Below, one piece after another: positions 466 through 19,768 of a stretch of DNA of 21,206 bases; position 1 is the first letter of the stretch; each line of letters begins with the position of its first letter. The position numbers and the translations under genes were made by a program. This DNA is from a virus, in the IMG/VR virus record IMGVR_UViG_3300021963_000771, positions 1-21,206 of that record. One strand, 5' to 3'. A model generated the notes under the pieces. The model had not been told where the DNA came from. It saw nothing but the letters and a program-made list of their open reading frames with translations, and searched no databases.

Positions 466-558
466 TTATTCTGTGCAGTAGCAGTCGCCTGCTCCTTCGT
501 TAATCTGTTGGATTGTCCGTAGGCATACTGGGCAGGGTTCTGTAGTTTCTTTTATCAT
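466..558 (-). CDS. Zinc-finger-like microprotein, 30 aa
   Basis: This ORF encodes 30 residues starting MIKETTEPCPVCLRT and ending GDCYCTE. Four cysteines (residues 9, 12, 26 and 28) form CPVC and CYC pairs, which suggests a small zinc-binding fold. Its ATG overlaps the TGA of the upstream 70-aa gene as ATGA, and its stop is 4 nt before the next start, so it exactly fills an otherwise unexplained 93-nt gap. The start also sits in a 19-nt leader shared with two neighbouring genes. These facts support a real gene despite its size. Its partner and function are unknown; zinc binding is inferred from cysteine spacing. Confidence 0.65.
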   Translation of the reverse strand: MIKETTEPCPVCLRTIQQINEGAGDCYCTE

Positions 559-573
559 TTCTCGTTGGTGTTA
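555..573 (-). repeat. 19-nt start-site leader repeat, copy A
   Basis: TAACACCAACGAGAAATGA on the minus strand. It encodes the last codons of the 70-aa gene (NTNEK and TGA) and provides the overlapping ATG of the 30-aa gene. It is identical to copies at 764-782 and 998-1016; the identity extends 2 nt further upstream (TT) with the 764 copy. Confidence 0.85.
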
Positions 574-767
574 AAGCGTAAACTGTAGTATTCCTCTGCG
601 ATGCCGTTATTAGGGTCAAGGCGCTGCATCTCCATACCCGTGTGAAATGCCTCTATGATTTCAGCCATCTCTTCTTTTACCATCAGCGAACGGATGGCAT
701 ACCAAGTAAACTTATCCTTCGGGGTATCCCAAAGTAATTCAAATAGTTTTTCGACTGGTGTTCTCAT
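555..767 (-). CDS. Small conserved-type phage protein, 70 aa
   Basis: A 70-aa, probably mostly helical protein with alternating acidic and hydrophobic residues (VKEEMAEIIEAFHTGMEM around residues 30-47), ending EEYYSLRFNTNEK. The pattern of an alpha-helix followed by a C-terminal E/Q-YY-x-x-x-F tail is, as I recall it, common in small early proteins of Bacteroidota phages of unknown function. The start follows the repeated 19-nt leader, and the last five codons (NTNEK plus TGA) are encoded by another copy of that leader, which provides the next gene's start. No function is assigned. Confidence 0.75.
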   Translation of the reverse strand: MRTPVEKLFELLWDTPKDKFTWYAIRSLMVKEEMAEIIEAFHTGMEMQRLDPNNGIAEEYYSLRFNTNEK

Positions 768-782
768 TTCTCGTTGGTGTTA
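764..782 (-). repeat. 19-nt start-site leader repeat, copy B
   Basis: TAACACCAACGAGAAATGA on the minus strand. Here the TAA at its start is the stop codon of the 73-aa gene, the middle is untranslated and the ATG starts the 70-aa gene. The same sequence thus has a different reading from copies A and C. Confidence 0.85.
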
Positions 783-1001
783 AAGAGTTAGTTCGTTTTC
801 GTTTAGGATGCGGTGAAGGGTGGTGCGAATCTTCTCATACGTTTCGTGTTCCATATCGGGCATTGAGTCAGGAGCGTACTTGGTCAAGGCTCGCAGTTCG
901 TTATCCATTACCCACATAGCGTACTTCCATTTAGCACCATTGACTGCATCTTGGAACTCCTCTTGCTCATCGGGTAGGTTGTAAACGAGTGTTGCTTTCA
1001 T
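780..1001 (-). CDS. Small conserved-type phage protein, 73 aa
   Basis: A 73-residue protein beginning MKATLVYNLPDEQEEF, with a mid-region KYAMWVMDNELRAL and a C-terminal helix TYEKIRTTLHRILNENELTL. This layout (a beta strand, DEQEEF, a W-containing amphipathic helix, then E-T-Y-E-K-I-R) matches a small phage protein family I recall from replication modules, but I cannot name a Pfam entry or role. The ATG overlaps the TGA of the 53-aa cysteine-rich gene. Its own TAA lies in the leader copy just ahead of the 70-aa gene. Confidence 0.75.
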   Translation of the reverse strand: MKATLVYNLPDEQEEFQDAVNGAKWKYAMWVMDNELRALTKYAPDSMPDMEHETYEKIRTTLHRILNENELTL

Positions 1002-1016
1002 TTCTCGTTGGTGTTA
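998..1016 (-). repeat. 19-nt start-site leader repeat, copy C
   Basis: TAACACCAACGAGAAATGA on the minus strand. It encodes the C-terminal NTNEK and TGA of the 53-aa cysteine protein and provides the overlapping ATG of the 73-aa gene. Confidence 0.85.
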
Positions 1017-2955: not shown

Positions 2956-3172
2956 TTAGCATTGATTCAAGTTGGTAAATAACCTCAACGATATGTTCTT
3001 TAGACATTGACATAAGGTATATCTCATTGTCCTCATCAAACACTTGGAATAGGTCAACCACTTCTCTGCCTTCCTGCTTCTCGAAACGTATCGTAAAGAA
3101 AGTTCCGTTGGTCATTGAGACGGTGTGTGAGTTGACGAACTCGTTGTCGTCTTGGTTATCTAAATCGCTCAT
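2948..3172 (-). CDS. Hypothetical acidic protein, 74 aa
   Basis: A 74-aa acidic protein with an N-terminal polar stretch (MSDLDNQDDNEF), a probable beta-hairpin region (SMTNGTFFTIRFEKQ) and a C-terminal helix (KEHIVEVIYQLESMLND). It is not recognised. It sits between the annealing protein and the exonuclease, with an ATGA overlap upstream (3169-3172) and an 8-nt overlap downstream, so it is translated with both. A role as an accessory factor of the recombination pair is possible, but only by position. Confidence 0.75.
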   Translation of the reverse strand: MSDLDNQDDNEFVNSHTVSMTNGTFFTIRFEKQEGREVVDLFQVFDEDNEIYLMSMSKEHIVEVIYQLESMLND

Positions 3173-3684
3173 TGGAATATAGATTCGTATTGCTCTGCCG
3201 TGTAGGTATACTTGCCTTCAAGTGCAGACTTCACGTGAGCCTCTTTTCCTTGCGTTACAGCCTCTTTCATAGAGTCAAGGATATCTTGGGTCAAAGGACG
3301 CTTAGAAGATGCAGCAGGAGGCGAATCTTGCTTCTTGATAGCCATATCGACCTCATCGGCTGTAGCGATAGAAGTGTCGATGCCAATCCCTAAGAACCCA
3401 AGGGCACGACCTACGGCTGAAGTTTCGCAGTTCTCGACATAAGACGTTTGGTTGATACGGCTTGATGCCTTATCCTCCTGAGCCATACCCTGAGATACTA
3501 CCAGCCCCTCAGCGTTCAGGATGCTTGCTCGTACTACGCAAGACTCAGAGTCGATGTGCAGTAGTTCGGTATGGATTCCATACCCAGCGTATGCTGGGAT
3601 AGAACGAAGGGCTTTCACACGCTGATTGACTTCAACGTACTCCTTTCCCTTGATGTTAGTGGTTTTGAATTTATAAGTGCTCAT
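3169..3684 (-). CDS. ERF/Sak-like single-strand annealing protein
   Basis: 171 aa. The core at residues 81-103 contains SYVENCETSAVGRALGFLGI followed by GID. It matches the signature of the ERF-type annealing proteins, in which an E-T-x-A-x-G-R-A-L helix precedes L-G-I. Upstream, KGKEYVEVNQRVKALR and a strand-rich segment form the likely Rad52-like core; residues 115-171 are a linker and helical tail. The protein would anneal complementary ssDNA produced by the RecE-like nuclease two genes downstream. A consensus promoter at 3706-3737 lies directly upstream, implying a leader of only about 15 nt. The exact subfamily (ERF, Sak or Sak3-like) cannot be set by eye. Confidence 0.75.
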   Translation of the reverse strand: MSTYKFKTTNIKGKEYVEVNQRVKALRSIPAYAGYGIHTELLHIDSESCVVRASILNAEGLVVSQGMAQEDKASSRINQTSYVENCETSAVGRALGFLGIGIDTSIATADEVDMAIKKQDSPPAASSKRPLTQDILDSMKEAVTQGKEAHVKSALEGKYTYTAEQYESIFQ

Positions 3685-5658: not shown

Positions 5659-6267
5659 TTAATGGAAAATTAAACCAACCTTACCTGTGGGGTTGTACCA
5701 CTTTGTAGCAAACAAATCGTACTCTGAGGCATCAATGTATCCCGCAGATAATAAAGCATCCTTTGTCTTAAATACCTGGCTATGACGCTCGGTATCTTTG
5801 TCAATAGTATCGACAAGTTTACCACCATCAGAGAATATAAAGTCAAAGTTATAGGGCATATCACTACCCCGAACGATATTCAGAGAATTAGTGTAAGCAT
5901 AAAAGTTTACACTTGGATTCTCCCTTGCGACAGAATACCACTTCTCTAAATATGCAGGGGAATAGAAATCACCGCTATCGTGTACACGCACAAATTCTGC
6001 ACGTTTCTTTCTAACTTCCTTGGACATAATCTCAACGAAGTTATCTTCTAATGTAGCCTCATATCTTTTCTCAAAAACAGGGCTTACATTGCTCCATATA
6101 TATGCACCCTTCTGTGCATAACAATACTTCACACATTTGTCGGCAAAAGGACAAATCATCTTGCCAGTCTTCTGTGATTTATAGGCAGTAATACCAAAGT
6201 TAAATAGTCTAACTCCGAACTTCTTGCCTGTCTTTTTAATCTTAGAATTCTGTGTTAATAGTTCCAT
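5659..6267 (-). CDS. GP88-family phage protein with CX5CX3C cluster
   Basis: 202 aa resembling the phage GP88 family (gene product 88, first named in mycobacteriophages). Characteristic segments are CPFADKCVKYCYAQKG (C39, C45, C49), FVRVHDSGDFYSPAYLEKW (about 92-110), FYAYTNS and a downstream FSDGGKLVD. The three clustered cysteines with a conserved His-Asp-Ser-Gly-Asp motif suggest a metal site, possibly an iron-sulfur cluster, but no activity is known to me. Similar proteins occur on plasmids and phages. Three clustered cysteines recall radical-SAM enzymes, yet the CX3CX2C spacing is not present. It lies among early accessory genes. Confidence 0.75.
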   Translation of the reverse strand: MELLTQNSKIKKTGKKFGVRLFNFGITAYKSQKTGKMICPFADKCVKYCYAQKGAYIWSNVSPVFEKRYEATLEDNFVEIMSKEVRKKRAEFVRVHDSGDFYSPAYLEKWYSVARENPSVNFYAYTNSLNIVRGSDMPYNFDFIFSDGGKLVDTIDKDTERHSQVFKTKDALLSAGYIDASEYDLFATKWYNPTGKVGLIFH

Positions 6268-17251: not shown

Positions 17252-19768
17252 ATGAGCTACAGACTAAGAGTAAACAATCAGTTCCTTGATTTATTTCCCA
17301 ATCAAGAAATTGCTATTGGCGTGGATTACTATGACACCACAAACATAGATTCCATAAAAATACCATTTAGCTTTAACGCTGAGGTTCCATACACCGACAA
17401 AAACAAAACCGTATTGGGCTACAATGATGTCAACGGTTATGGTGGTATTCCATTAACAGAGTATAATTATCAGGTATATAAAGGTGATGACATTATATCA
17501 TCTGGAAGGTCTAGGATTCAGTCTGTGGTGATAAACTCTCTTGAGCCTATATTCAGCCTTGAGCTAAAGGATAAAGTTTCTGAGTTCTCTAAGGCGCTTA
17601 GGGATCTGAATATTGAAGATATATACAATGATGCTTTTTCTACTCAGGTAAGGACTTTATCGACATACTTATCCAACAACCAAGGCTACGACCAAAGAGA
17701 CATCGAGATACCATTTATTGATTTCGACAACATTCAAAAAACAACAGGATATGAATCACGTCAATTTACTTCGTGGGGCACTAGTGGCAAGAAGTTTGGT
17801 CTTATGCCAGCACTTAGAGTCATTGACTTTATTGACAGGGTATTTAACGCAACTGGCCTAACATACACCTCTAAGTTTATTTCTGGTACGGGTTCTTGGG
17901 ACCCAAGGAATCTCTATATACTTTATCCAACGTATCTATCCGCAACCCCGGCAAGCAAGCGAGAAAGTTTCCTGTTCCCATTTCCGTACAATGTTCAAGT
18001 AAACACAGACCAAGATATTGCGATTGAGGTAGAGGTAAACAACAATCAATGGACCACGATTCCAAATCAAAACTATAAGCTTACTGAAAAAGAAACATAC
18101 GAACCCTTTGGCCCAACCAACTACGCTGTTGGTGAATCTTTAATTTCAAGAGAGTATGGGGACCAAGTAAGAAAGTCTTCCGGAGTTACTGATTGGGGTG
18201 ATGAGAATGTAGGATATGTATCTTACGGTTCTTCGTTTAATGCAAAAATCTCATTTAACTCTGGAACGGTAACAATAGCTAACCTCAGAACCTGCATTTT
18301 TTCTTTAGATGGGGAGTACGATGGTCAAATCATACCAGAGTTTATTGAGGGTGTGGTTTTAAGCTCTCAGGCCAATTTTAGGCCATACGTTCTAATCTAT
18401 GAATCGTATACTACGGCAAGTCAACCAAAATACATAATCCCTATGGTTGATGTTAACGGAGCCCAAATAACTCTTTCCGTTTCATCTGTAGCGCTTAACT
18501 CGAACCCTATTGATTTTATGCCGTTTTCTATTGCGTCAGACAACGCAAGCACATTTGTATTTAATACGTTTACGGCAAAAATTGACAACACGATTCCATA
18601 CGAAATAAACGGAGGAAGCACTTACTCTTACGCCATTGGAGTATATATGGAGGGTACGCTTTTTTGTAATACCGCAAGCCACGGATTTAATCAGGATGAT
18701 GAAGCATACCTGTTTAATTTAAAAACAAATAGGGGGATAACTCAACTTGATATTGTAAAGCAAAGAACTTTCGGATACGACTGGTCTGTTCTTGGAATTA
18801 AGATTGATAATATTGGAAGTGTTCCTGCAACAGTTCCAAATGACAACTTTCAATTCAAAGAATCATTGTCCAACAATAAGTCTTATGGTGTCTATGACAT
18901 TATGATAGACATTATGAAACGCTTTGGGCTTAGTCTAATCTATGACCACACAAGCGATAATATAATTCTTGACAACCTAAAAGACATAAGACTCACAACG
19001 GCTGCAATGGATGGGTATCTCGATACGCTAAAACCATTTGAGGTAGAGTCTGGAGTAGTTCCTCCAAAGACATTAAAGCTTTTAAACGAGGCTAAAAATG
19101 GTATATACGACAAGACAGATGCTGGACTTGCAGTTGGTAGCTTTGATGGTGTTTGGAAAGCAAATGGTTCTGGAGAAAAGTCTTTGGAGTTTAAGACATC
19201 CTTGATTAACTCAATAGATAAGTCTGTGTGTGGTCCTGAATTCTTTAACGACCCGATACTAATAAGTGATGGACTTGTTGCCATTCAAGAAGTTGGCAAT
19301 ATAAAAAATGAAATACCCGACTACGACAGTGTTGGACTTAGGATATTTTATTTAAGGGAGCCTAACTTCGGCACTACGTTAAGGTATCCCGTATTCCGTG
19401 AGTATAATAATTACGGGCAAAGGATTCGACAGATTCTATACAAGAGTATGGGGACTTACTTACTCCAAGGATATCCCGTTAACTCACTATCTGGCAATCA
19501 AATAGATTTACGATTCGCCCTTGCGAATGGAACGACAACAGCAGCCTACAACTACTTAGTTAGCACAGAGCGCTTTGCAGCAAACGAAAAGAGCAAGATG
19601 TCCTTTTATGCTGCAATACCAGATACTATGTTCCAAAGCGGAGCGCTTTATAAGAAGAAGTTTACATTTAACAAAACGGATGAAAACTTTATTGTAAACT
19701 CATTAACCGATGCTAAAATCTATGATGGATATGTGTACGGCAAATTTGAGGTGATTTTTGTAGATTAA
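17252..19768 (+). CDS. Large tail-tip/baseplate hub protein, 838 aa
   Basis: 838 residues. The N-terminal region (SYRLRVNNQFLDLFPNQEIA and IKIPFSFNAEVPYTDKN) is strand-rich. The block RVIDFIDRVFNATGLTYTSK at about residues 190-209 is a pattern I associate with large central tail proteins of Bacteroidota phages, and a second similar helix (DIMIDIMKRFGLSLIYDH, near 547) follows. The remainder is beta-rich with many Asn, Ser and Tyr, as in receptor-contacting proteins. It would form the tip complex that binds the host cell surface and guides the tube. No peptidase or glycosidase motif is visible. The host-binding role is inferred from position. Confidence 0.65.
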   Translation: MSYRLRVNNQFLDLFPNQEIAIGVDYYDTTNIDSIKIPFSFNAEVPYTDKNKTVLGYNDVNGYGGIPLTEYNYQVYKGDDIISSGRSRIQSVVINSLEPIFSLELKDKVSEFSKALRDLNIEDIYNDAFSTQVRTLSTYLSNNQGYDQRDIEIPFIDFDNIQKTTGYESRQFTSWGTSGKKFGLMPALRVIDFIDRVFNATGLTYTSKFISGTGSWDPRNLYILYPTYLSATPASKRESFLFPFPYNVQVNTDQDIAIEVEVNNNQWTTIPNQNYKLTEKETYEPFGPTNYAVGESLISREYGDQVRKSSGVTDWGDENVGYVSYGSSFNAKISFNSGTVTIANLRTCIFSLDGEYDGQIIPEFIEGVVLSSQANFRPYVLIYESYTTASQPKYIIPMVDVNGAQITLSVSSVALNSNPIDFMPFSIASDNASTFVFNTFTAKIDNTIPYEINGGSTYSYAIGVYMEGTLFCNTASHGFNQDDEAYLFNLKTNRGITQLDIVKQRTFGYDWSVLGIKIDNIGSVPATVPNDNFQFKESLSNNKSYGVYDIMIDIMKRFGLSLIYDHTSDNIILDNLKDIRLTTAAMDGYLDTLKPFEVESGVVPPKTLKLLNEAKNGIYDKTDAGLAVGSFDGVWKANGSGEKSLEFKTSLINSIDKSVCGPEFFNDPILISDGLVAIQEVGNIKNEIPDYDSVGLRIFYLREPNFGTTLRYPVFREYNNYGQRIRQILYKSMGTYLLQGYPVNSLSGNQIDLRFALANGTTTAAYNYLVSTERFAANEKSKMSFYAAIPDTMFQSGALYKKKFTFNKTDENFIVNSLTDAKIYDGYVYGKFEVIFVD

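Follow-up and report, generated by a model that had tools for sequence, protein, structure and literature searches.

A short leader at gene junctions of uncultured phages: a probable recombination seam for small-gene cassettes

Small genes in the IMG/VR virus record IMGVR_UViG_3300021963_000771 (21,206 nt, analysed at its full length and referred to here as the window) start at identical copies of a 19-nt leader, TAACACCAACGAGAAATGA, within a gene array at 466-1159. Our results suggest that this leader is, with high probability, a seam for homologous recombination that doubles as a stop-start adaptor for small-gene cassettes. The seam would be about 20-26 bp long, with a consensus of about ACCTTTAACACCAAMGAGAAATGAAA, and would recur between adjoining small-gene cassettes in the tandem arrays of many uncultured phages. 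Its copies would pair by homology, either inside one genome or between co-infecting phages, and such pairing would delete, insert or swap whole cassettes while a single leader stays at the new joint. Gain and loss of genes at the seam, shuffled neighbours, a change of linkage, the use of stop codons and a low predicted structure were each shown by comparison of sequences.

The window contains exactly three copies of the leader with no mismatches, at 555-573, 764-782 and 998-1016; each of them is on the minus strand and terminates in the ATG(A) of an open reading frame (ORF). In order of transcription the genes, also on the minus strand, are A (998-1159; 53 amino acids [aa]; the first gene of the array and a member of phrog_20586, of unknown function), B (780-1001; 73 aa), C (555-767; 70 aa; in the largest cassette family) and D (466-558; 30 aa; beginning MIKETTEPCPVC), with a leader at the A/B, B/C and C/D junctions. 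The copies at A/B (998-1016) and C/D (555-573) encode the end of the upstream protein, NTNEK, with a TGA that shares bases with the ATG of B or D. At B/C (764-782), gene B stops at the leading TAA, after which come 12 intergenic nt and the ATG of C. A preliminary description made from the letters of this DNA had noted a leader used three times, each time at a gene-start ATG, that codes for NTNEK and a stop in two copies and is intergenic in one; exact matching and the reading frames confirm both statements. It made no mention of the strand that the three copies have in common. No match was present in 100 dinucleotide shuffles of the window, even with up to three mismatches allowed. A 17-nt core, AACACCAACGAGAAATG, was found in more than 119 stretches in IMG/VR, as against 2 for the reversed control pattern. 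A chance origin of the repeat was rejected because of the lack of shuffle matches and the rarity of the control pattern. Variants of the leader occur in at least 120 (AAMACCAAAGAGAAATGA) and in 65 (AAAACCAACGAGAAATGA) stretches of the same database, and a longer form shared by other phages is approximately ACCTTTAACACCAACGAGAAATGAAA.

Gain, loss and reassortment of cassettes at the leader

Relatives of the window that are 95-98% identical across the aligned stretches differ from it by whole cassettes. B is missing from L194, in which A is directly joined to C. B is also missing, with A joined to C, from the record that holds L014, L195 and L274, and there an additional cassette of ~42 aa stands between C and D with a leader on each side. 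Two further records (L095/L190/L275 and L199/L279) lack both B and C, so that A is joined to D. The breaks in these alignments coincide with the leader, and each new joint keeps one leader. The preliminary description had proposed a search of relatives for genes gained or lost between copies, and it is exactly there that whole cassettes differ. It had also named the pattern that would speak against selection on the leader or a seam, namely the same gene chain with unrelated junction sequences; this is not the rule; loci without the leader usually also differ in the neighbouring gene.

The neighbours of the leader are shuffled among a large number of phages. Among 223 unique leader junctions, 198 pairs share the left flank only, 181 the right flank only and 22 both. 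The corresponding numbers for a set of 684 junctions, drawn from 510 loci with 361 left and 341 right clusters, are 852 (upstream only), 1158 (downstream only) and 119 (both). Sharing of both flanks amounts to 4-5% of flank-sharing pairs at leader junctions versus 52-56% at other gene junctions, which served as a separate control. A de novo search for 17-mers that occur in many contexts ranked the leader first, with 65 left and 57 right contexts.

The position of the exchange can be resolved within the leader. Identity breaks after ATGAAA in pairs that share the left flank and near -14 to -21 in those that share the right. With the A of ATG numbered 0 and excess identity averaged over the clusters of the 684-junction set, the value for the left gene falls from ~0.85 at -15 to ~0.5 at -12 and ~0 at +7, while that for the right gene rises from ~0.1-0.3 at -20 to -15 to ~0.8-0.96 at +3 to +5. 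As upstream linkage decays and downstream linkage rises within the leader, crossovers probably fall inside it. A start element moving with its gene, or a tail staying with its gene, would be expected to give one-sided tracking, unlike the observed pattern. These profiles fit exchange within the leader, which in the aligned records stands at the exact borders of the apparently exchanged modules. The preliminary description had offered a recombination seam and an initiation enhancer as alternatives: gain and loss, shuffling and linkage inside the leader argue strongly for the seam, and the evidence for the enhancer is weak.

Stops, starts and alternative explanations

At 276 junctions, the upstream gene ends at the TGA overlapping the ATG in 160 and at a TAA at -15 in 57 (217 of 276 in total), and genes hardly ever run into the leader in the third frame. 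Predicted pairing over -14 to +2 is 0.34 at the leader versus 0.49 at other starts, although G+C is higher at the leader. The terminal ATG, the TAA at -15, the overlapping TGA and the weak structure would together provide any inserted cassette with a stop and an open start, and the stop-start overlap may couple translation of adjacent genes.

Some of these properties would also be expected if the leader were mainly a translation start element, either an enhancer independent of the Shine-Dalgarno (SD) sequence or a site for a phage factor, with shuffling as a by-product. We regard this as unlikely. The leader is fixed directly at the ATG in nearly all copies, is unusually unstructured and forms lineage dialects that are maintained across one genome, all of which would agree with such a role. 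SD motifs precede 30 of 845 starts in these phages, versus 61 in the control, and the starts are A-rich at -11 to -13; SD scarcity and an A-rich upstream region have been described for Bacteroidetes, and in Flavobacterium johnsoniae an A at -3, -6, -12 and -13 favours initiation (PMC6847099). The leader has G at -3, C at -6 and C at -12 and is unfavourable at three of these four positions, so it does not resemble an optimised initiation site. Its most frequent variants replace C by A at -6 and -12, which is the favoured direction, and hence some selection on initiation is possible. However, orthologous genes also start without the leader, and the left half of the leader follows the upstream gene rather than the gene to be served.

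It is far less probable that the leader is the target of a site-specific recombinase which moves the cassettes in the manner of an integron integrase. Single-gene cassettes in one orientation with a short common site would agree with such an enzyme. However, no tyrosine integrase (PF00589) was detected in 39 leader-bearing records (possibly fragments) or in the window, while all 14 control genomes were positive; nor was a serine resolvase found in these records or in the window. The three window junctions, folded as RNA, gave z values of -0.21, 1.19 and -0.05 versus shuffles, so that no hairpin of the attC type beats the shuffles, and linkage shifts gradually along the leader, not at a single point.

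The least probable reading reduces the repeat to the conserved C-terminal end of a single family of tandemly duplicated genes. This reading draws on the largest family (55 distinct proteins, including C of the window), many members of which end in YYNETFNTNEK, but as a sole explanation it is refuted by the ~87 families that use the leader as a start and the 57 junctions that read it in another frame without encoding NTNEK, and unrelated cassettes come and go at the leader. The common ending does suggest where the sequence may have come from: we conjecture that the leader derives from the tail of this family (...YYNETFNTNEK*) overlapping the next start.

The ~87 families, delimited by BLASTP clustering, have a median length of 70 aa, and a few with a single member may be chance matches inside genes. 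Nearly all are of unknown function. Candidate defence families from PADLOC match only 2 of 84 cassette representatives (PDC-S10, E 2.6e-58; PDC-S64, E 3e-4), and we therefore make no functional (defence) claim for the cassettes. One of the 84 representatives matches a YqaJ-type recombinase domain. At L204-L207 the tail encoded by the leader is NTKEK and is followed by an apparent tRNA gene, and at L176 and L180 a gene of the B family begins right after an apparent tRNA 3' end.

Carriers of the leader and candidate drivers of exchange

The strand of the leader was constant within each of 50 whole records, with up to 13 copies per record at two or fewer mismatches. One 63.6-kb record (G068; L417, L519 and L520) holds 21 leader-like copies in an array that includes 15 consecutive small ORFs within ~4 kb. 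In this record 20 of the 21 copies end in GAGAGATG, a dialect that looks homogenised inside one genome. The same phages also have a second, different recurrent leader, ~TAAAACCAATCA(A/C)AATG, in front of several genes, some of them of replication type (L021, L024, L128, L130, L143 and others).

Leader carriers, some of which may be fragments, span more than one lineage, as judged from their terminases. The large terminase of the window was matched at 71-99% identity in 3 of 38 leader-bearing records, a 387-aa terminase-like ORF at 21-25% identity in 13, and a terminase match was absent in 22. An extended 19-mer (the core with YT at its 5' end) was absent from 84,980 prokaryote genomes, nor was the B family found in prokaryote genomes, and a host origin of the leader was rejected on these grounds. 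In INPHARED there was no leader copy at a gene junction; MW202478 has an exact 17-nt match just within a gene, without the ATG, and in FPSV-D35 the start of a gene carries a weak near-variant (E 8). Neither megablast with the window nor tblastn with B, the 838-aa ORF at 17252-19768 and one cassette protein gave a match in INPHARED, and an Rfam search gave none. An earlier description of such a repeat in Bacteroidetes phages was not found in the open-access literature. Several flavobacterial phages, and others besides, carry relatives of the gene A family; together with the scarcity of SD motifs and the A-richness at -11 to -13, this suggests that the hosts of the leader-bearing uncultured phages are probably Bacteroidota. 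Elsewhere in the window, 5659-6267 encodes a protein of the GP88 family (PF17338); most of its relatives in INPHARED belong to mycobacteriophages.

Exchange is probably driven by a phage Rad52-type annealing protein, which would act together with an exonuclease. The candidate in the window, encoded at 3169-3684 on the minus strand, is a predicted single-strand annealing protein of the Rad52/Sak/Mgm101 type. Its AlphaFold2 model (predicted local distance difference test, pLDDT, 79.5) was aligned by VIA-align with RAD52 (Z 9.2 over 103 residues), Sak of phage 80a (8.0) and Mgm101 (7.8), with dsRBD rows at 7.2 or less. Foldseek alone gave no significant match; its top rows were SnoaL-like (E 3.5e-3, TM 0.27), and the Rad52-type rows were preferred to them for their consistency. 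No annealing family was recovered when Pfam and PDB were searched with the protein sequence. By modelled fold, the family of this protein (phrog_11717; more than 590 candidate stretches in IMG/VR) is a Rad52-type annealing protein. Downstream of it, at 2212-2955 on the minus strand, lies a gene for an exonuclease VIII-like PD-(D/E)XK nuclease (PF12684, E 3.8e-24; phrog_412, E 7e-43), a possible partner. Annealing proteins of the window type were found in 7 of the 38 leader-bearing records (one match being partial and weak) and ERF in 8, with no RecT above the cut-off in any of them.

Several observations weigh against a seam that is used by phage-driven homologous recombination. Many leader-bearing records, perhaps fragments, encode neither type of annealing protein, and for this reason a phage driver is only inferred. 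The homology at the leader is short (~20 bp). The sites were picked by similarity to the leader, and this selection accounts for part of the leader's own conservation; when loci of B orthologs were instead collected by protein, the leader (three or fewer mismatches) stood at 31 of 61 and other sequence at the rest. Junction pairs are non-independent events, though the contrast with the control is large. Finally, L125 and L129 come close to being an exception to the rule that loci without the leader also differ in the neighbouring gene: the gene upstream of B appears to be the same in both, but it lacks a leader-like end in L125 and has one in L129.

Relation to known systems

The closest published counterpart of the leader is the start-associated sequence (SAS), with its extended form (ESAS), of cluster K mycobacteriophages (PMC3203893). 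Both are short asymmetric phage repeats at the starts of non-structural genes, mostly in one orientation, before varied families and absent from hosts, and the leader likewise stands directly upstream of starts on one strand per record. The SAS is 13 bp long and includes AGGAG, the SD core; it is placed 3-7 bp from the start, mostly behind gaps of >50 bp, and is nearly restricted to one cluster; its authors raise recombination as a possibility only (PMC3203893). In contrast, the leader has no AGGAG core, its stops and starts overlap or nearly touch (160 and 57 of the 276 junctions) without gaps of >50 bp, it is spread over unrelated phages, and exchange at it is demonstrated by sequence comparison. 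Conserved boundary sequences that allow modules to be swapped by homologous recombination have been proposed for phage mosaicism but were not identifiable at most borders (PMC3029335). The leader is likewise a short common sequence at module borders; it differs in being a single sequence at several hundred single-gene borders and in also carrying stop and start signals.

Integron cassettes, which are also known from phage integrons (PMC9892861), are likewise small single genes that follow one another in one direction, with a shared site between them, and are gained or lost singly. However, the leader-bearing phages have no detected integrase and no attC-type hairpin, the site is a short direct repeat and exchange looks homologous. 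We consider it about an even chance that the leader represents a phage counterpart of the integron, that is, an integrase-free cassette system in which a short universal adaptor, both a seam of homology and a signal for stop-start coupling, re-deals a shared pool of tiny genes among unrelated phages. It is known that Rad52-like recombinases of phages act on short as well as diverged sequences (PMC3945230), and the window encodes such an annealing protein by predicted fold. That study used hundreds of base pairs in temperate phages, whereas the leader is ~20 bp long and its phages have no detected integrase.

It has long been asked how phage mosaics originate one gene at a time. Here, a single sequence marks several hundred single-gene borders, and the breakpoints can be placed to within a few bases. 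The leader may serve as a mark for locating phage accessory genes and as a gauge of exchange among unrelated phages, and it permits a direct test of the role of annealing proteins in this exchange.
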